NCBI GenBank assembly: GCA_943788095.1
Contig: CALSOZ010000001.1
Span: 372,001 to 436,000 of the forward strand
Length of the DNA: 64,000 nt
DNA from: an uncultured Flavobacteriaceae bacterium
GTDB taxonomy: Bacteria > Bacteroidota > Bacteroidia > Flavobacteriales > Flavobacteriaceae
Reading direction: 5' to 3'
The translations under genes and the position numbers were made by a program. This document shows, one piece after another, positions 4,496-15,564 of the stretch (the stretch's first letter is position 1; every line of letters begins with the position of its first letter). Under the pieces are notes generated by a model. That model was given only the letters and a program-made list of their open reading frames with translations, was not told where the DNA came from and made no database searches.

Positions 4496-4569
4496 GGGGA
4501 TGTAGCTCAGTTGGCTAGAGCGCTTGACTGGCAGTCAAGAGGTCGTGAGTTCGAATCTCATCTTCTCCA
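4496..4569 (+). tRNA. tRNA-Ala (GGC)
   Basis: A cloverleaf is drawn by eye. Acceptor GGGGATG pairs with CTTCTCC, including the G3:U70 pair that marks alanine tRNAs. The D-arm is GCTC..GAGC, the anticodon stem CTTGA/TCAAG with loop CTGGCAG (anticodon GGC at 4530-4532), and the T-arm GTGAG/CTCAT. CCA is not encoded. Position 6:67 is a T:T mismatch. The 3' half is repeated at 15369-15420, showing this is the target of an integrated island. Confidence 0.9.
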
Positions 4570-4570
4570 C
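4519..4570 (+). repeat. attL-like repeat (tRNA-Ala 3' half)
   Basis: Matches 15369-15420 over 52 bp with four differences, all in the T-stem. The differences come as compensating pairs (GTGAG/CTCAT here, GTCGG/CCGAT there), so both copies keep a paired T-stem. Confidence 0.85.
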
Positions 4571-4658
4571 AAAGGGAATTGTAGCAATGCAGTTCTCTTT
4601 TTGTTTAAATACGCGCACCTAGACGTGCACCTGTTGGCAATTTTCACTATATTTGGGT

Positions 4659-6113
4659 ATGGTTATCACTCTAAAAATCGATTCAAATGTTAAAAAGTCG
4701 GGACTCAATTCCGTCTATTTCTACGTTTCACAAGGCAAGAGTGGCTCAATATCTCAAATGAGAAAGAAGATTTATGTTGGCTTGGATGTGTCTATTAAAC
4801 AATTTGACTTAAAAAATTTTAGAGCTAAATCACGTCACGCTAATTTTCAAATCATTAATAAAAGGCTTGACGAGTTAAGGGTTTTGATGTCTACGAGTCA
4901 GACCAAATTCGAAGCTAGTCAATATACAGTCGAGCAAGTTATTTTACATTTAAAAGGCGAGGCTGACGCTGAAAGTGTGGATAGTTACATTGAAACATTT
5001 GTCAAAAGTCAGAAGTCTAAGAAGACTACTTATACAGATTACAAATACACCTTATCAGCTTTCAAGAAACATATTGGATATAATAAAGAAAGACCTATTA
5101 CATTCAATGAATTTTCTAACTACTCTTTATTGCTAAAGTTTAAAAATAATGCTCAAGCTAATGGAGTAAGAGCAACCTCAATAAATTCCTATTTTAAAAA
5201 AATAAAAGCCATCATAAACGATGCTTATGACAATCAGGTAGTCTTTGAGAGATTTGAATTCAGAAAACGACTAACTATCCAGAATGCGGAGAGAAAAGAG
5301 ATTAAAACACTAACGACTGAAGAGTTTAAAAAAGCTACAAATACGTGCGTTTCAATATACGAAGTTCAAGCATTGTGTTTTTATTTACTAATGTTTATGA
5401 CTCGAGGAATGTATCAAGCTGACTTGGTGAAATTTAAAAGTTATAATCTTAAAAACGATACTGACAACAAAAAAGAGGATGAGTATTCTAAGTTTTGTCA
5501 AGACGGCTATGACTACATAGTTCACACACGAAGTAAAAATCAAAATCGGTCTAATAATAAAATGCTCATTCGAATAGATGACACTACAATGATAATGTTT
5601 AAGTTACTAAAACAATCTGTTTGGTGTACTCACTATGATAGGCGAAAGGAGTTAAAACTTGAAGAAGACGATTTACTTAATGTATTTGGGTACGATGTAG
5701 ACGACGTAAAACTCCATACAGGTGTGTTTGACGTGTATCAAAAACATTGCAAGAAATTGCTTGGCGTACCTCTTAAAAATGCCCGTAAGAGTTTTAATTC
5801 ATATGCTTTTAGACTTGAAATATCTCAGGAGATTCGAAACGTATTGTTAGGGCACACCAATCCAAACATTATAAAACATTATGACGACTTATCTTTTATT
5901 GAGGAGCAGGTTAATGCGGCTCATATAAGTGTGCTCAAAAAGTTTGAAGTAAAGACTCTAGTTAATCTACTTGAAAAGCAATTCCATAAAGTAGGAGCTG
6001 ATTTCATTGAATCTGAAAGTATTATTTTAGACTTAGAAAAGTTTGGAAAACACAACTCTAAATTCATAAATAAACACAACAGCTCAGCTTATGTAAAGCG
6101 AGTTAGGGGTTAA
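4659..6113 (+). CDS. tyrosine recombinase / integrase 1
   Basis: About 484 residues from the ATG at 4659; a TTG six bases upstream is possible. An N-terminal arm-binding region (ITLKIDSNV...) is followed by a SAM-like core-binding domain (~100-200) and a catalytic domain. Catalytic features seen are Arg in MTRGMYQADLV (~248), the ARKSFNSYA box, LLGHTNPN and Tyr in IKHYDDL (~407). This layout is the Bacteroidota integrase type. It lies 90 bp inside attL and points away from the tRNA. It probably catalyses integration at tRNA-Ala, although a second integrase lies at the other end. Confidence 0.85.
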   Translation: MVITLKIDSNVKKSGLNSVYFYVSQGKSGSISQMRKKIYVGLDVSIKQFDLKNFRAKSRHANFQIINKRLDELRVLMSTSQTKFEASQYTVEQVILHLKGEADAESVDSYIETFVKSQKSKKTTYTDYKYTLSAFKKHIGYNKERPITFNEFSNYSLLLKFKNNAQANGVRATSINSYFKKIKAIINDAYDNQVVFERFEFRKRLTIQNAERKEIKTLTTEEFKKATNTCVSIYEVQALCFYLLMFMTRGMYQADLVKFKSYNLKNDTDNKKEDEYSKFCQDGYDYIVHTRSKNQNRSNNKMLIRIDDTTMIMFKLLKQSVWCTHYDRRKELKLEEDDLLNVFGYDVDDVKLHTGVFDVYQKHCKKLLGVPLKNARKSFNSYAFRLEISQEIRNVLLGHTNPNIIKHYDDLSFIEEQVNAAHISVLKKFEVKTLVNLLEKQFHKVGADFIESESIILDLEKFGKHNSKFINKHNSSAYVKRVRG

Positions 6114-7083: not shown

Positions 7084-8852
7084 ATGAAAAAACTGCTCTT
7101 ACTCTCCGCTTTATTAATCTTCGCTTGTACAGATGACGAGGGTAATCCTTGTGTTTACGAGCCAACTCTAACCACACAAGCTGCTACTGATGTTACTGAA
7201 ACCTCAGCTACTTTAAATGGTGTTATAAGTATCGTATCAGAGAATTGTGAAGTGCCTAACAATACAGAACAAGGGTTTGTTTATTCTACTGAAATACAAC
7301 CCACTTTAGAAGATATTCAAGTCAATGTTAATGGGACTAATATTTCTACAACTATTGAAGACCTTGAGCCAAACACTACTTATTATGTAAGGGCTTTCTT
7401 GACTAATAATTTTGGAGATTTTTATGGTGATGAGGTTAGTTTTTCTACAACTGAAGTTCCTTGTGATGTAGTTTATTTGGACGAAAATGGAATTACTATA
7501 AAGGCTTGCCCTGATGCTAATGTTGGAGATGTAGGGACTGTTAACGGAGTTGAATATACTGTAGTGGATAGAGCAATGCTTGACGAAATGATAGCTAATG
7601 ATGAAGATTTAATAAAAATTTGCACTACAAGAATAACCAATATGGGATGGGAAGGCGAATCTACTCAAGCCCCAATAGGTTTATTTCTTGGTAATTATAA
7701 CAACCTTTCAGAATTCAACCAACCTATTGGAAATTGGGATGTGAGTAATGTTACTGATATGGGTTTTATGTTTTTCAATTCTGCCTTCAATCAGCCTATT
7801 GGAAATTGGGACACAAGTAGTGTGACCGATATGCGTTATATGTTTAACAATTCTGCCTTCAACCAACCTATTGGAAATTGGGATGTGAGTAATGTTACTG
7901 ATATGGGGGATATGTTTTACCTTTCTGCCTTTAATCAGCCTATTGGAGATTGGGATGTGAGTAGTGTGACTGAAATGATTTCTATGTTTAGGTCAGCTTC
8001 TTCCTTTAATCAACCTATTGGAGATTGGGATACAAGTAATGTTACTGATATGACTGGTATGTTTGCCGCTTCTCCCTTTAATCAACCTATTGGAAATTGG
8101 GATGTGAGTAATGTTACTGATATGGGGGATATGTTTTATAATTCCCGCCTTCAATCAGCCTATTGGTAATTGGGATGTAAGTAATGTTACTGATATGACT
8201 GCTATGTTTAGGTCAGCTTCTTCCTTTAACCAACCTATTGGAAATTGGGATGTGAGTAGTGTGACTGATATGACTGGTATGTTTAACAGTAAATTCAACC
8301 AACCTATTGGAAATTGGGATGTGAGTAATGTGACTGAATATGGGTGGTATGTTTGGTACGCTGCAGCTTTCAACCAACCTATTGGAAATTGGGATGTGAG
8401 TAATGTGACTGATATGAGTGATATGTTTTACCTTATGCATGCTTTCAATCAAGCCTATTGGAAATTGGGATGTGAGTAATGTTACTGATATGACTGGTAT
8501 GTTTGCCGCTTCTCCCTTTAATCAACCTATTGGAAATTGGGATGTGAGTAATGTTACTGATATGGGGGATATGTTTAACTATACAGCTTTCAATCAGCCT
8601 ATTGGTAATTGGGATGTGAGTAATGTTACTGATATGACTGCTATGTTTAGGTCAGCTTCTTCCTTTAACCAACCTATTGGAAATTGGGATGTGAGTAGTG
8701 TGACTGATATGGGGTATATGTTTTATGGCGCTGCCTTTAATCAAGATATTAGTATTTGGGCGGTGGATAATGTTACAGAATGCACAAACTTCAACTACAA
8801 CACCCCCCAATGGACACTACCTCAACCTAACTTCACAAACTGTACTCCATAA
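7084..8852 (+). CDS. BspA/DUF285 repeat surface lipoprotein 1 (two frameshifts)
   Basis: Starts with a lipoprotein signal (LLIFAC, then TDDEGN), followed by a fibronectin-III-like domain (~30-125, ending [16 protein letters not shown]). Then come about fifteen tandem ~24-residue units of the [16 protein letters not shown] type, the DUF285 signature of BspA-like leucine-rich surface proteins. The open frame is lost twice: one extra C near 8146 and one extra A near 8447, both inside repeats where sister units show the normal sequence. Restored, about 589 residues. BspA proteins mediate binding to host or matrix proteins. Tandem paralogue at 8930. Confidence 0.75.
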
Positions 8853-8871
8853 TCAAACACTTACAAAATAA

Positions 8872-8929
8872 TGACTAGTGGAAGGGTTAATTGAAATTTC
8901 TTATCTTTGAAATATAAACCAATTTAATA
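8872..8929 (+). promoter_or_regulatory. duplicated promoter/leader module with TATCTTTG box
   Basis: About 58 bp nearly identical to 6565-6624, including GGAAGGGTTAATTGAAATTT, the -7 box TATCTTTG (8902-8909) and TATAAACCAATTTAA, with a 20-base spacer to the ATG at 8930. It shows that the promoter travelled with the duplicated lipoprotein genes. Confidence 0.65.
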
Positions 8930-10507
8930 ATGAAAAAACTGCTCTTACTCTCCGCTTTATTAATCTTCGCTTGTTACAGATGACGAGGGCAATCCTTGTA
9001 TCTACGAGCCAACTCTAACTACACAAGCTGCTACTGATATTACAGAAACCTCAGCTACTCTAAATGGTGTTATAAGTATCGTATCAGAGAATTGTGATGT
9101 GCCTAACAATACAGAACAAGGGTTTGTTTATTCTACTGAAATACAGCCCACCTTAGAAGATACTACAAGTCAATGTTAATGGGACTAATATCACGACTAC
9201 TATTGAGGGTTTATCTCCTAATACTACATATTATGTAAGGGCTTTCTTGACTAATAATTTTGGGGATTTTTATGGGGATGAGGTTAGTTTTTCTACAACT
9301 GAAGTTCCTTGTGATGTAGTTTATTTGGATGAAAATGGGATAACTATAAAGGCTTGTGACGATGCTATTGTAGGGGATGTAGGTATTGTTAACGGAATAG
9401 AGTATACTGTAGTAGATAGAGCAATGCTTGACGAAATGATAGCTAATGATGAAGATTTAATGAAAATTTGCACTACAAGAATAACCGATATGGATGGTAT
9501 GTTTAGTGATTCTACCTTCAATCAGCCTATTGGAGATTGGGATACAAGTAGTGTGACCATTATGGGTGATATGTTTAGTAATTCCCCCTTCAATCAGCCT
9601 ATTGGAGATTGGGATACAAGTAGTGTGACCATTATGGGTGATATGTTTTATAATTCCCCCTTCAATCAGCCTATTGGTAATTGGGATACAAGTAGTGTGA
9701 CTGAGATGGATGGTATGTTTAGTGATTCTACCTTCAATCAGCCTATTGGAGATTGGGATACAAGTAGTGTGACCAATATGAGGTTTATGTTTTATAATTC
9801 CCCCTTCAATCAACCTATTGGAGATTGGGATACAAGTAATGTTACTGATATGACTGGTATGTTTGCCGCTTCTCCCTTTAATCAGCCTATTGGAGATTGG
9901 GATGTGAGTAGTGTGACCATTATGGGTGATATGTTTTATAATTCCCCCCTTCAATCAGCCTATTGGAGATTGGGATACAAGTAGTGTGACCAATATGACT
10001 GGTATGTTTAGTACTTCCCCCTTCAATCAGCCTATTGGTAATTGGGATACAAGTAGTGTGACCATTATGAGTAGTATGTTTGGTCATTCCCCCTTCAATC
10101 AGCCTATTGGAGATTGGGATACAAGTAGTGTGACTAGGATGATTGGTATGTTTAGTACTTCCCCCTTCAATCAGCCTATTGGAGATTGGGATACAAGTAG
10201 TGTGACCAATATGAGGTTTATGTTTTATACTTCCCCCTTCAATCAGCCTATTGGTAATTGGGATACAAGTAGTGTGACTGAGATGGATGGTATGTTTAGT
10301 TCAGCTTCTTCCTTTAACCAACCTATTGGAAATTGGGATGTGAGTAGTGTGACTGGGATGGAGCTGATGTTTATGGCAGCTTCTTCCTTTAACCAAGATT
10401 TAAGCAGTTGGACTGTTGGAAATGTAACAGTGTGCTCCAACTTTAGTGATTATGTGACCCCTCAATGGACACTTCCTAAACCTAACTTCACAAACTGTAC
10501 TCCATAA
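8930..10507 (+). CDS. BspA/DUF285 repeat surface lipoprotein 2 (three frameshifts)
   Basis: Tandem paralogue of the 7084 gene, with the same lipoprotein signal, Fn3-like domain and about thirteen DUF285 units ([14 protein letters not shown] type). It ends in a shared capping segment with [15 protein letters not shown]. Compared with its sister it has one extra T near 8975, one extra A near 9164 and one extra C in a C-run near 9945. Each alone breaks the frame; undoing them gives about 525 residues. Mostly single-base insertions suggest sequencing error, although C-run slippage could be genuine phase variation. Confidence 0.72.
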
Positions 10508-10771: not shown

Positions 10772-12074
10772 TTAGTCTACCCAACGAACTACAGACACTT
10801 TATTGGTCTTGAATAGTTTGTTAATATTTAAATCTTTAGGAATAACGTCTTTGTAAAGTTCTCTAACTCGCTTTATTAGTCTATCCTTAACCATTTGGGT
10901 TTTGTTTTCTGTAGTTAGTATACAGTCGTGAATAAGTAACGCGAACATATCCTCTGGTAAATTCTTATAAACCTCAACAAAGACTTTAGCTTCTGCAGAT
11001 TGTCCTCTATGGCTTACTTTCTTGTACCCCTCATTAAACTTAATGTTGTCTATCCATTTTATTAGTTCTGGCAGTAGTACTTTTAATTCTTTATAAAGTT
11101 TAGTTGGCTTATATTCTCCGTTAAAAGTCGTTAGAATTTCTTTCTTCATTTTATCGTATTCCATATCCTTAAGCACTTCAGAGTTCTCTACCAAATACTT
11201 ATAGACTTTGCCATTAGCAACTAACTCAAGGCACTTATTGGCTTCTTCACTCATACTGGCTAAAGACCTAATCCACTCTAGAATTAGAAGAGACGGCTGA
11301 GCGGATGCCATATCTACTTCATAGATTAACTCATCACTTTTTGTTACGCATATCTTTCTAATTAATCTAGGCATAGACGCGCCAATGTGATAGACTCTTC
11401 CAAATTGATTAATTCTTGGCTGAAAGAAGATAGGCAATTCATAAAGGTCGTTTAGGTTATTTGTGTCGTTAAGTGTCCTAAAGGCTTTGAAATAGGCTTC
11501 GTACTTGTTTAGTCGTTGTTGTATGTTGTCGTCTCTCCACACTAAAGTGCCGTGCTTTAAAGGGGAGTGTTTAAGTGGAAACTCAAATAGATAAACTGTT
11601 GGGTTATTAGTTAATTGTAGCTTTAACGTATTACGGTTTATCTTGTCGAGTACTAGATTGCTTTCAGACTCTTTAGCCGGTCTTGCATTAGACTCTTTTA
11701 GCTTATTTCTGAACGCTTTACTACTAACCTCAACCATTTTATAGTCTCCCTCCTCAAGATTTTTTTTTAGCGCATAGGATTTTGTAAACTTACCGCTTGA
11801 GTACTTCTCGTTCATATAGACTATCTCAATATCTGCTAATGCATCTACTATACTATTGTACTCTATTTCCTATACTTTCTTTAAGTGTTTTTGAGTGGAT
11901 ATTTACGAGCTCTCCCAGTCCTTTCTCGCTCTTAATCTGACTTTTAATTATATGAGTAATAAACCAGTTACACTTATCTATAAACAGCCTCTTATGGTGC
12001 ATAGATGCAATGCTAGAATAGTTCTGATGCTTTTGTAGCAACGACTCTAAATTACGGATGGTATATAGCTTCAA
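10772..12074 (-). CDS. replication-like protein with compact family-A polymerase-like palm motifs (one frameshift)
   Basis: Two reading frames join into one protein of about 433 residues. An N-terminal part (11853-12074, TTG start) looks like a winged-helix DNA-binding region. One extra A in an A-run near 11865 separates it from a 347-residue part starting MNEKYSSGKFTKSYAL. In that part: FGRVY (138-142), motif A-like YEVDMASAQPSLL (D168), a lysine-rich helix KMKKEILTTFNG (222-233), RGQSAEAKVF (270-279) and motif C-like LLIHDCIL (D297). Their order and spacing match the palm of PolA and T7-type polymerases. No exonuclease domain or long thumb is present. Iteron-like repeats lie directly upstream, so a replication-initiator/polymerase role is inferred, not shown. 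Confidence 0.55.
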
Positions 12075-12451: not shown

Positions 12452-13215
12452 ATGAAAAAAATTACATTACTAGTTTTGATGCTTTTTACAGCACTCAGCT
12501 ACTCACAAGTAGGTATAAATATAGCAACTCCACACACCTCTTCGGCATTGGACATTACTTCTACCACAGGGGGGTTACTTGTACCAAGACTCACAGAGAC
12601 GCAGCGTGATGATATTTCAGCACCTGCTACAGGTTTAATGATTTATCAAACAAACGGTACATCAGGTTTTTATTATTACAATGGTAGTAGTTGGGCTGAA
12701 GTAGCTGCTACTTCCAAAACTTATAGTATTGGTGATGTTGTTAATGGCGGTGTTGTCTTTTGGTTAGATAGCACGGGTCAACACGGCTTGGTTGCGGCAT
12801 TTTCAGATGTAGCAACTTCGGTAGAATGGGGTTGTTTAAGTACAGATTTACTAAACGTATCAAATGTCCCTTATAATGGAGGTTTTCCTACGGGCTCAGG
12901 TGCTGAAATAGGAGATGGTTTTAATAACACCAATAATATTCTTAAAGATTGCTCTACTGCTCCCGCTGCTTTAGCGGCAAGGTCTTATGGTCCAGACTGG
13001 TTTTTACCAAGTGCTAAGGAGTTAAACCAAATGTATGTTAATAAAACAACTTTAGAGGGTGTCTCTGGGTTTACTGCATTTAGTGAATGGTACTGGAGTT
13101 CTACGGAGTACGATGGCGGTTTCGCGTGGCCTCAGTTATTTCGCCAATGGTGATCAGGACTTCTACTGCATTAAGGAGCTACTCATTCTTTGTGCGTGCT
13201 GTTCGGGCTTTTTAG
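12452..13215 (+). CDS. exported DUF1566/FISUMP-type protein 1 (two frameshifts near the C-terminus)
   Basis: Signal peptide (MKKITLLVLMLFTALSYS), then a VGINIATPHTSSALDI segment common at the N-terminus of tail-fibre-like surface proteins. A C-terminal DUF1566-type domain follows (DWFLPSAKELNQMY, WYWSSTEYDGG). The frame stops at 13153, but dropping two extra bases (near 13135 and 13170) restores an end with VRAVRAF and a stop at 13213-13215, as in the next gene. These C-type-lectin-like domains act as binding heads. The last ~40 codons differ strongly from the paralogue while their flanks match. Tandem paralogue at 13384. Confidence 0.65.
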
Positions 13216-13240
13216 TTATTTAATTATTTATCAATTTAAT

Positions 13241-13330
13241 ACAAGCCCTTGCATCTTAGCAGGGGTTTTTATGTTTGGCATATCTTCTTCTTTCAGTTCA
13301 GTGAATTCTAAGCCACGTAAATAGGTTTAA
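13241..13330. repeat. cassette-boundary repeat, copy 2
   Basis: Same order as copy 1: terminator (13246-13270), TTTGGCATATCTTCTTC, then integrase 3'-end remnant (reverse strand YLRGLEFTEL). It separates the two DUF1566 genes. Confidence 0.7.
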
Positions 13331-13341
13331 ATAAAAGTGAT

Positions 13342-13349
13342 TATATTTG
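13342..13349 (+). promoter_or_regulatory. -7 promoter element TATATTTG
   Basis: TATATTTG 34 bases before the ATG at 13384, with the TTTAAACCAATTACAC leader related to the other surface-protein genes. Confidence 0.55.
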
Positions 13350-13383
13350 AACTTTAAACCAATTACACTTTTAAAACAATAAG

Positions 13384-14199
13384 ATGAAAAAAATAATAGT
13401 AATCGTATTGATGCTTTTTACAGCACTCAGCTACGCACAAGTAGGTATTAATATAGCAACTCCACACGCCTCTTCGGCATTAGATGTGACTTCTACCTCA
13501 GCAGGCTTTTTACCTCCACGTATGACTGCCTTACAACGCGCTGAAATTGTTAACCCAGCATTGGGATTGATGGTGTTTTGCACCAATTGTGCATCAGGCG
13601 ACGGAGAACTTCAGGTTAATTATGCATCGGGATGGAAAAACGCAGCTGGCGGTGACATAACAGACCCACCACCACAAATAGGTGATTATAGAGATGGTGG
13701 AATTGTTTTTTATATTGCGTCACCCCCCGTAGATTTAGATGGAGATGGTGATTTAGATACAGGCTTGGTTTGTGCAGTAGAAGACCACACTAATGCAATT
13801 GCGTGGATAATCGGAGGCTCTACGCAAACAACTGCAAATGGCGGTACATCAGCTTCTATTGGACACGGGCAAACAAATACAACTGCGATGATGAATCAAG
13901 TTGGTTATATAGGAGGTGCTGCTGCAGTTTGTAATGATTATTCAATTACAGTTAATGAAATTACGTACAGTGATTGGTTCTTACCCTCAAAGGATGAGTT
14001 AAACCAAATGTATCAAAATAGGGAAACGATAAACACTACAGCATCAGCAAATGGTGGTAGTAATTTTTCTATTAATTACTTCTGGAGTTCTACGGAGGGC
14101 GAGGGTAGTACCGCGTGGGATCAGGGTTTCAACGTTGGTAATCAGGGCGACATCGATAAATACTACGTAAGCTGGGTGCGTGCTGTTCGGGCTTTTTAA
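13384..14199 (+). CDS. exported DUF1566/FISUMP-type protein 2
   Basis: 271 residues: signal peptide ending SYAQ, the VGINIATPHASSALDV segment with LPPRMTALQRAEI, a glycine/aspartate-rich linker (DLDGDGDLDTG) and a C-terminal DUF1566 domain with DWFLPSKDELNQMY and FWSSTEGEG. It ends in a variable-looking tract before SWVRAVRAF. Intact, unlike its tandem copy. The terminator and integrase-tail repeat follow it. Probably a secreted or surface ligand-binding protein carried as island cargo. Confidence 0.75.
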   Translation: MKKIIVIVLMLFTALSYAQVGINIATPHASSALDVTSTSAGFLPPRMTALQRAEIVNPALGLMVFCTNCASGDGELQVNYASGWKNAAGGDITDPPPQIGDYRDGGIVFYIASPPVDLDGDGDLDTGLVCAVEDHTNAIAWIIGGSTQTTANGGTSASIGHGQTNTTAMMNQVGYIGGAAAVCNDYSITVNEITYSDWFLPSKDELNQMYQNRETINTTASANGGSNFSINYFWSSTEGEGSTAWDQGFNVGNQGDIDKYYVSWVRAVRAF

Positions 14200-14217: not shown

Positions 14218-14303
14218 CAAGCCCTTGCTTTTAGCAGGGGTTTTTATATTTGGCATATCTTCTTCCTTTCAGTTCAGGCTATTTCAAGCCCTCTCAAATA
14301 GGT
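14218..14303. repeat. cassette-boundary repeat, copy 3 (runs into integrase 2)
   Basis: Terminator (14221-14245), TTGGCATATCTTCTTCC, then the true 3' end of integrase 2 (reverse strand YLRGLEIA stop at 14274). This is the parent form of copies 1 and 2. Confidence 0.75.
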
Positions 14304-15318
14304 CAGAGATACATTTATAGACGAATGTCCCATAGCTTTCTGTAGCTTGGTTATAGAGCCTGTTCGTTTAAATATTTCTATAGCTCCTGAGTGTCTAAAT
14401 GAGTATAGTGTTTGGTCTTGTTCAAGCAGTTTAGAAACTCTCTTAAAACGACTCCAAAGTGTCTTAAAATAGTCTTCATTTAAAGGTCTTGTAGTGTCTG
14501 TGAATATATTGTGATGAGGTTGTCCTTTAACAAGCAATATCTCTTACGTATATTGGCACAGGAACTATTCTGTTCTTGCCAGACTTATTTCTATTACCAG
14601 ACAAATGAATATAGCCCAAGTCATCACTAAAATCAGACCACTTAAGTTCCCTTATTTCACGATGAGGTCTTAAAAGACATCCGTAGGTCATTATACAACA
14701 CAGATACAAGTTATTATTAAACAACTTTATCTCGTCAAGTATGAGCCTAATATCATTGTAAGGTTTATGTAGTTTAGCCTTTGTTTTCTTTGCTTTAATG
14801 CCCTCCATAGGATTGCTGTTCATTCCTATGTTTCTTGCTTCATTTATAAGCACGCTGAGGTGTCTTTTAATGGTGTTATACGACACTCCTAAAGCATAGT
14901 GATTTAGATAAGATTTAACGTCGTTAGAAGCGATGTTTTCATTAGAAAGTTTAGATGTGAAACTATCATAAACAAACCTCAGCATTGACTTGTATTTATC
15001 TGAATATTCTCCTTGCAGTTTAGCGTCTAATGCTAACTTAAAATACTCTAAATCTGACTTATTAATAACCTTTAAGGGCTCTTGAATACTTAAGCCACTT
15101 GTTATGAATTTAAACACCTCAGCAGCTAACAATTGAGCTACCTCAAAACGTTTGCCAACAGGATACGAATTTGGATAGAGATTAGAATTGATTTTACGAC
15201 CATTAAACAACCTGTAACGCTTACCATTGATATAGAAAACGATGTAAACACGTTGCTTATTATCAGACTTTACTTTTGGATATTTTACACTCATTTTTGA
15301 CAGACTTTTGACAGACAT
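14274..15318 (-). CDS. tyrosine recombinase / integrase 2 (one frameshift)
   Basis: Two overlapping frames (14527-15318 and 14274-14537) make one tyrosine recombinase of about 347 residues. The N-terminal part has an arm-type segment (KSDNKQRVYIVFYINGKRY), the core-binding domain and the first catalytic Arg in CLLRPHREIRELKW. The second frame carries YSFRHSGAIEIF, MGHSSINVSLTY and the nucleophile Tyr. The break near 14530 is a single-base shift after VPVPIYVRDI. It sits about 50 bp inside attR and points inward, opposite to integrase 1, and is a different subfamily from it. Activity depends on whether the shift is real. Confidence 0.75.
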
Positions 15319-15368: not shown

Positions 15369-15420
15369 AGCGCTTGACTGGCAGTCAAGAGGTCGTCGGT
15401 TCGAATCCGATCTTCTCCAC
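15369..15420 (+). repeat. attR-like repeat (tRNA-Ala 3' fragment)
   Basis: Copy of the tRNA-Ala anticodon arm through discriminator base with no 5' half, so it is not a functional tRNA. It marks the right end of the island. T-stem bases differ from attL as compensating pairs. Confidence 0.85.
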
Positions 15421-15452
15421 GATTACTCGCAGTGCAACTGCGACTTAAAATT

Positions 15453-15489
15453 AAAAAAACTTACTAAGTTTGCTTGTGTAAGTTTTTTT
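15453..15489 (+). terminator. intrinsic terminator past the island
   Basis: AACTTAC (15458-15464) pairs with GTAAGTT (15478-15484), with an A-run before and a T-run after, so it could work on both strands. In the original chromosome it would have ended the tRNA-Ala transcript. Confidence 0.65.
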
Positions 15490-15564
15490 GTTTTAAGACC
15501 TCTGGTCTGAAAGAACAGCGCACTGTATTTATAGCGAAGTAACGGCTTATTGTTGTTAGTTTCT

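Follow-up and report, generated by a model that had tools for sequence, protein, structure and literature searches.

The window, by which we mean the whole 64,000-nucleotide stretch analysed here, holds at a tRNA-Ala gene an island with two tyrosine recombinase genes, several cargo ORFs and a frame-broken gene for a compact, predicted family A-like polymerase (Table 1). When the open reading frames were translated, the motifs pointed out in an earlier sequence-only reading of this DNA were found on the minus strand, where GRVY (139-142), YEVDMASAQPSLL with D168 and IHDCIL with H296-D297 stand in the order claimed within a 347-aa ORF. The plus strand was rejected as the coding strand of 10772-12074, its translation containing 37 stops. 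The same reading had taken 10772-12074 for a single protein, which did not hold, since the palm/fingers part and the N-terminal part lie in different frames and the span is not one ORF.

Table 1. Features of the tRNA-Ala island in the window (window coordinates)
Feature	Position	Strand	Details and evidence
tRNA-Ala (ggc), left attachment site	4496..4570	+	ARAGORN
Tyrosine recombinase 1	4653..6113	+	486 aa; PF13102 E 1.2e-8, PF17293 E 3.8e-6, both over cut-offs
Cargo, DUF285-repeat lipoprotein-like ORFs	7084..10507	+	several frames, separate from the polymerase; PF03382 E 1.1e-61 (first ORF)
Palm/fingers part of compact family-A-like polymerase	10772..11815	-	ATG start, 347 aa; frame open between stops to 11869 (365 aa)
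Residues of the palm/fingers part: GRVY 139-142, D168, K224, Q272, E275, H296-D297	10772..11815	-	alignment, model, Foldseek
N-terminal part of the same polymerase gene, other frame	11853..12074	-	73 aa from TTG; aligns with the N-terminus of the congener protein in L249
Cargo, two weakly Lcl_C-like ORFs	12452..14199	+	233 and 271 aa; PF07603 E 0.015 and 4.6e-8, both under cut-off
Tyrosine recombinase 2, split over two frames (14274-14537, 14527-15318)	14274..15318	-	PF00589 E 1.1e-6 (C-piece), 0.0052 (N-piece)
Partial tRNA-Ala copy, right attachment site	15369..15420	+	52 nt, direct copy of the tRNA 3' part

State of the polymerase gene and its island

In the congener G565, one open frame of 460 aa (L249:9291-10670, minus strand) aligned with both window pieces, the C-terminal part with 45% identity over 356 codons and the 73-aa N-terminal part with 35% over 71 residues of the congener N-terminus, suggesting that the window copy is probably a pseudogene. 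Between the two C-terminal parts dN was 0.54 and synonymous change was saturated (pS 0.73), which makes the ratio rough; these values suggest that the window protein was formerly under constraint. Recombinase 2 of the island is also frame-split, and its counterparts in the congeners G573 and G554 are unbroken ORFs of 358 and 357 aa. With both the polymerase gene and one recombinase broken, the window copy is probably a remnant, and decay appears to be the likeliest reading of the frame change. We consider it rather unlikely that the change is instead a sequencing error or a programmed frameshift in a gene that works here. A working gene would fit the occurrence of only one frame change, the retention of all catalytic positions, the past constraint and the incomplete draft state of the genome (75% completeness); the unbroken congener gene, the single frame of the other full-length relatives, the parallel break in recombinase 2 and a further copy interrupted by stops (G573:C3:669059-670433) argue against it. 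The window's genome holds a single copy of the family and, separately, an ordinary Pol I at G000:C1:460282-461415.

The sequence-only reading had placed the gene in a tRNA island, and this was borne out by the tRNA-Ala gene and its direct 52-nt partial copy. The two copies are identical at 48 of 52 positions, and the four differences, read by eye, all fall in the T-stem with pairing kept. Over all 52 positions the left copy agrees with the tRNA end in G565, and the right copy with that in three other congeners (52/52 each). In G565 the same two flanking genes are 2.4 kb apart, compared with 13.6 kb in the window, and a single tRNA-Ala lies between them, marking an empty site. The G565 DNA past this tRNA-Ala matched the DNA past the right copy (89.7% over window 15369-15522, the tRNA end included), whereas its agreement with the DNA past the left copy was at chance level (36/120 positions). 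The empty site and the flank matches indicate that tRNA-Ala was the insertion point of an island about 10.85 kb long. G573 and G554 contain other DNA at this site, with recombinase 2 and some cargo in common with the window; judged by these comparisons the site is an insertion hotspot, and the window island may be composite.

Within the genus, the family was present in 3 of 18 genomes, the window's own counted, and G565 and G573 hold further copies, including two open frames of 516 and 525 aa (L250, L247). In a FastTree analysis of 69 proteins the window protein paired with the G565 copy with support 1.0, and the pair formed a long branch apart from a clade of loci carrying an AAA_24 ATPase and DUF3871. 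In G565 and G573, polymerase genes directly follow genes for N6_N4_Mtase DNA methylases (L247:1718-3214, L250:10426-11955, L248:6454-8079). A ParB partition gene beside these polymerases was considered and rejected, as the genes concerned are the methylases, one of which has a ParB_N domain. In L249, ORFs similar to the Lcl_C-like cargo of the window adjoin the polymerase gene. The same locus, beside a tRNA-Met, contains 5.1 tandem repeats of a 391-bp unit (L249:7070-9059, 97% matches), and every unit has a tRNA 3' end at its start and includes a small GIY-YIG ORF.

Extent, conserved residues and predicted fold of the family

The family was traced with the window protein and then outward from the relatives found. 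Used alone, the window protein recovered relatives in a single further genome, out of 196 searched in the order, and in three phage records with lengths of 636-735 kb. The extended search found the family in 17 of 395 Bacteroidota genomes (the window's own counted), at 28 loci in the species genome collection, on 58 viral contigs, several of them near-identical, and in six phage records of 595-735 kb and one plasmid. Neither the window protein nor the L002 protein, each used singly, recovered a relative from viral contigs, and a scan of plasmids with the window protein gave no match. Three weak matches (L023, L024, L025) failed the threshold of E 1e-5 and were dropped; of 87 distinct family ORFs, 65 remained after culling at an identity of 70%, and these were aligned.

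The alignment revealed that R140, Y205, K224, E275 and D297 (window numbering) are invariant in all 65 sequences, that Q173, Q272 and D168 are each kept in 64, the last with one E, and that H296 is kept in 62, with three F. The putative catalytic residues, namely the Asp of motif A, the Asp of motif C and the O-helix Lys, are therefore present in 64, 65 and 65 of 65 members. Since the positions of the motifs first noted are invariant or nearly so in these 65 non-redundant relatives, we conclude that the motifs did not arise by chance. The family consensus of motif A is D-[ILMV]-x-[NSCT]-[SAC]-[QH]. An O-helix-like fingers spacing, R/K-x3-K-x3-F/Y-x3-F/Y, was kept at its four positions in 60, 65, 49 and 59 of 65 members, respectively. 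The window subfamily differs from the rest of the family here, the window protein having Y in place of R/K, and L and N in place of the aromatics, at the three variable positions.

No match to the window protein was found in Pfam or NCBIfam. When 42 members were searched, no Pfam family matched more than two of them, PF00476 was not among the matches, and none matched NCBIfam. Clear homology to a non-polymerase family had been named beforehand as evidence that would count against a polymerase, and neither Pfam nor NCBIfam has a family to which the members could be assigned. One phage protein family, phrog_4756, annotated as of unknown function, matched 8 of the 42 (best E 9.5e-7). Searches of a collection of open-access papers brought up no description of the family or the element. 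The compact family, of Pol I type by its predicted fold, thus has no name in Pfam or NCBIfam.

AlphaFold2 models were obtained for the 365-aa window frame (mean pLDDT 77.8, pTM 0.73) and for an intact relative, L038 (mean pLDDT 89.8, pTM 0.86), using alignments of 42 of 45 eligible proteins (L047, L056 and L107 left out). Foldseek against the PDB gave 25 matches at E <= 0.001 for the window model (best 4.4e-5), all of them family A DNA polymerases, and 106 for L038 (best 7.3e-6); the best 50 listed for each model were all family A DNA polymerases, among them Klenow, Taq, Bst, apicoplast apPOL and Pol theta. TM-scores by query length were modest among the matches listed, at 0.26-0.45 for the window and 0.28-0.41 for L038. 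In both models the motif A Asp lies within a strand and the HD pair in a turn between two strands; both start with a winged-helix-like part and have no exonuclease domain. The predicted secondary structure of L038, which is what supports the winged helix, runs helix-strand-helix-helix-strand-strand over residues 66-137, and two long helices (189-228), which could be the place of a reduced thumb, precede the palm elements, so that the lack of a thumb proposed in the sequence-only reading is doubtful. Thus the fold prediction and structural search that the sequence-only reading had called for gave palm polymerases as the best fold matches, in agreement with its proposals of a family-A-type polymerase fold, a winged-helix-like N-terminus and the absence of an exonuclease domain, and a family A (Pol I-type) palm/fingers fold is well supported by the models. 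In Foldseek against viral models the two best matches were A0A516L5C2 and A0A8D9FR19 (uncultured marine phage) at E 2.5e-22 and 1.1e-16, which are probable family members on the basis of the predicted structures; one is named 'Putative DNA polymerase I', a name given by annotation alone. To our knowledge there is no functional test of A0A516L5C2, A0A8D9FR19 or phrog_4756.

The profile-profile search proposed at the same time gave weak scores. Comparison of the family with 38 Pol I-type sequences yielded a probability of 3%, with the fingers Lys, FP, Q and HD lining up, and the score for Pol I (27.3) was above those for T7-like RNAPs (25.0) and six unrelated alignments (11.7-19.1). The test is blunt, since Pol I and T7-like RNAPs were not joined by it either (20.1). 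Searched against PDB sequences, the family profile had a sole match, N4 RNAP2 (E 0.54), and this alignment brings both HDC and the fingers Lys into register.

Pol I and the family have the motif order GR / D / K / HD in common, and the Pol I fingers pattern R-x3-K-x3-F-x3-Y resembles the spacing given above. Most members differ from Pol I in their length of about 350-550 aa, with a winged-helix-like N-terminus and no exonuclease domain, and the family has Q for the motif A E and S for the motif C E, with no usable sequence similarity and no PF00476 match. The likeness to T7-type single-subunit RNAPs and N4 RNAP2 lies in an HDS/HDC motif C, the R-x3-K of the fingers and, in the window protein, GR-x-Y, whereas such RNAPs are absent among the best 50 PDB matches of each model and the family is much smaller.

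Elements that carry relatives

Recombinases accompany the gene at 21 of the 28 bacterial loci, 17 with a tyrosine recombinase of one cluster and 4 with a serine recombinase; among the seven loci without either cluster, one (L042) shows a recombinase-like C-terminus by eye. Phage_integrase occurs at 50 places in about 23.5 Mb of six reference genomes, giving about 1.3 expected per 28 x 21 kb, a figure to be read with the facts that some loci are shorter than 21 kb and that the reference genomes themselves hold such elements. An AAA_24 ATPase was found at 12 of the 28 loci, and DUF3871 at 12. A tRNA gene was present in 15 of the 27 loci scanned (L046 left out), 12 of these 15 also carrying the AAA_24 ATPase, and in 7 of 11 loci mapped gene by gene it lies 0.13-0.32 kb from the recombinase. 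In three genomes a 20-nt tRNA-Met end is present in exactly two copies, both on the same strand, that flank the gene at a spacing of 14.8, 17.6 and 17.9 kb; in a fourth (L039, Kordia) a whole-genome pattern search found the end once. In L041, a tRNA-Arg end is repeated 10.8 kb away. At most tRNA loci the retrieved flanks lacked a second copy of the attachment site, and none of four short contigs tested had circular ends. The recombinases, and the tRNA ends repeated around the gene in the window and in relatives, support the integrative setting that had been suggested from the window.

Three retrieved elements have a common order of tRNA, recombinase, polymerase, AAA_24, DUF3871, variable cargo and a gene for 116-134 aa, with RadC in two of them; the polymerase gene adjoins the recombinase in this common part, outside the variable cargo. 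All three carry defence-like or other cargo, such as GajA and GajB in L238 (E 9.5e-97 and 2.3e-78) and a NERD+UvrD protein in L239 (E 6.6e-84), and PADLOC left three of ten cargo proteins without match. When the AAA_24 and DUF3871 proteins of one relative were searched against the window's genome, one query each, no match was found. In Robiginitalea, DUF285-repeat genes adjoin the family member (L050:11620-13770), as they do at window 7084-10507, and by sequence they are a cargo type common to both loci.

The plasmid member lies on a 35-kb Hymenobacter record that also encodes a replication initiation protein and ParA, the initiation gene adjoining the polymerase gene. That the polymerase and ParA were the only replication genes of this plasmid was rejected because of this initiation protein. 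A 'nucleotide-binding protein' of the record (L005:22499-23272), also considered as ParA, proved to be a CAP12/Pycsar-type TIR protein (PF10137 E 1.5e-24). The proposal of a self-contained initiator-polymerase was not upheld by the relatives, given the AAA_24 ATPase in 12 of 15 tRNA loci and the ordinary replication initiation protein beside the plasmid member.

Possible role in element replication

We regard it as somewhat probable that the window locus is a decayed gene for a compact exonuclease-less polymerase of family A fold, with a winged-helix-like N-terminus, that serves to replicate the excised element. Polymerase activity, its substrate, template and priming, and element replication as the role are all points that we infer. 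In such a mechanism the recombinase would cut the element out of its tRNA site, recruitment of the polymerase to the element DNA would fall to the winged-helix part, and the two palm Asp and the fingers Lys would add nucleotides along the template, so that the excised form could be copied before re-integration, with help from the AAA_24 ATPase in many elements. The enzyme would be a minimal Pol I-type core without proofreading, joined to a DNA-binding winged helix. Several findings weigh against this explanation: the modest TM-scores, the 3% profile probability and the lack of a fitting Pfam or NCBIfam family; the initiation protein adjoining the plasmid member; the broken window copy and its divergent fingers; the window genome's lack of matches to one relative's AAA_24 and DUF3871 proteins; and the fact that an excised form was not seen.

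HDS in motif C and Gln in motif A are compatible with an activity like that of an RNA polymerase or primase, and the protein might be a single-subunit enzyme of the T7/N4 kind in reduced form, an RNA polymerase or primase by which the element DNA is transcribed or primed. HD is followed by S in 57 of 65 members, as in T7 RNAP (HDS at 811), whereas the Pol I set has HDE in 38/38; the motif A position is Q in 64/65 members and E in 37/38 Pol I sequences; the GR-x-Y of the window occurs also in T7 RNAP, and N4 RNAP2 is the one PDB sequence that the family profile matched. We nevertheless think this reading quite unlikely, because the best 50 Foldseek PDB matches of each model were all family A DNA polymerases and the profile score of Pol I was slightly above that of T7-like RNAPs, both scores being weak. 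Also improbable, in our view, is that the protein works as a polymerase in repair or gap filling, or takes part in defence or counter-defence, rather than being the element's replication enzyme. Such a function would suit the defence-like or other cargo of the three retrieved elements, the separate initiation protein of the Hymenobacter plasmid and the methylases adjoining the gene in two congeners, but in the three retrieved elements the gene stands next to the recombinase in the common part, and the family is also found in phages of 595-735 kb.

If the replication of excised elements is indeed the role, the family would be an analogue, with a family A fold, of the pipolin polymerases, and it would help to account for the persistence of some of the tRNA-integrated islands. 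It would also offer small natural exonuclease-less polymerases for the direct study of priming and sugar selection. We suggest, as a speculation that is unlikely to hold in full, a family-A counterpart of the pipolin polymerases in which winged-helix initiator and polymerase are united in one chain, with a primase-free start and loosened sugar selection, replicating undescribed tRNA-integrating and partly defence-carrying Bacteroidota elements and shared with phages of 595-735 kb. The motif A Glu of Pol I is its sugar gate, and Tyr766 of Pol I and Tyr639 of T7 RNAP have roles of this kind; loosened selection is proposed from the Gln that replaces this Glu and from the mostly Phe residue at the family position that we take to correspond to Tyr766 and Tyr639. 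Pipolins, in the parts of their description drawn on here, are tRNA-integrated elements bounded by direct repeats, with a tyrosine recombinase and their own primer-independent family B polymerase (PMC7385651). The elements described above are alike in their att-like direct repeats, tRNA site, tyrosine recombinase and own polymerase, and differ in that the polymerase has a predicted family A rather than a family B fold. By its distribution, the unnamed compact Pol I-type family is found in Bacteroidota integrative elements, on at least one plasmid and in phages that rank among the largest.

Individual members showed further features. A divergent protein (L022:424-1950) has Glu where motif A otherwise has Asp, its motif C reads HDG, and it is possibly altered or inactive. 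The family protein at L041:9968-12022 has a homing-endonuclease-like C-terminal part with GIY-YIG and NUMOD1. A 3.6-kb Sediminibacterium contig (L047:1-3589), which consists mostly of one family member, is bounded by perfect inverted repeats of 95 bp; these may come from the assembly or mark an invertible or linear element.
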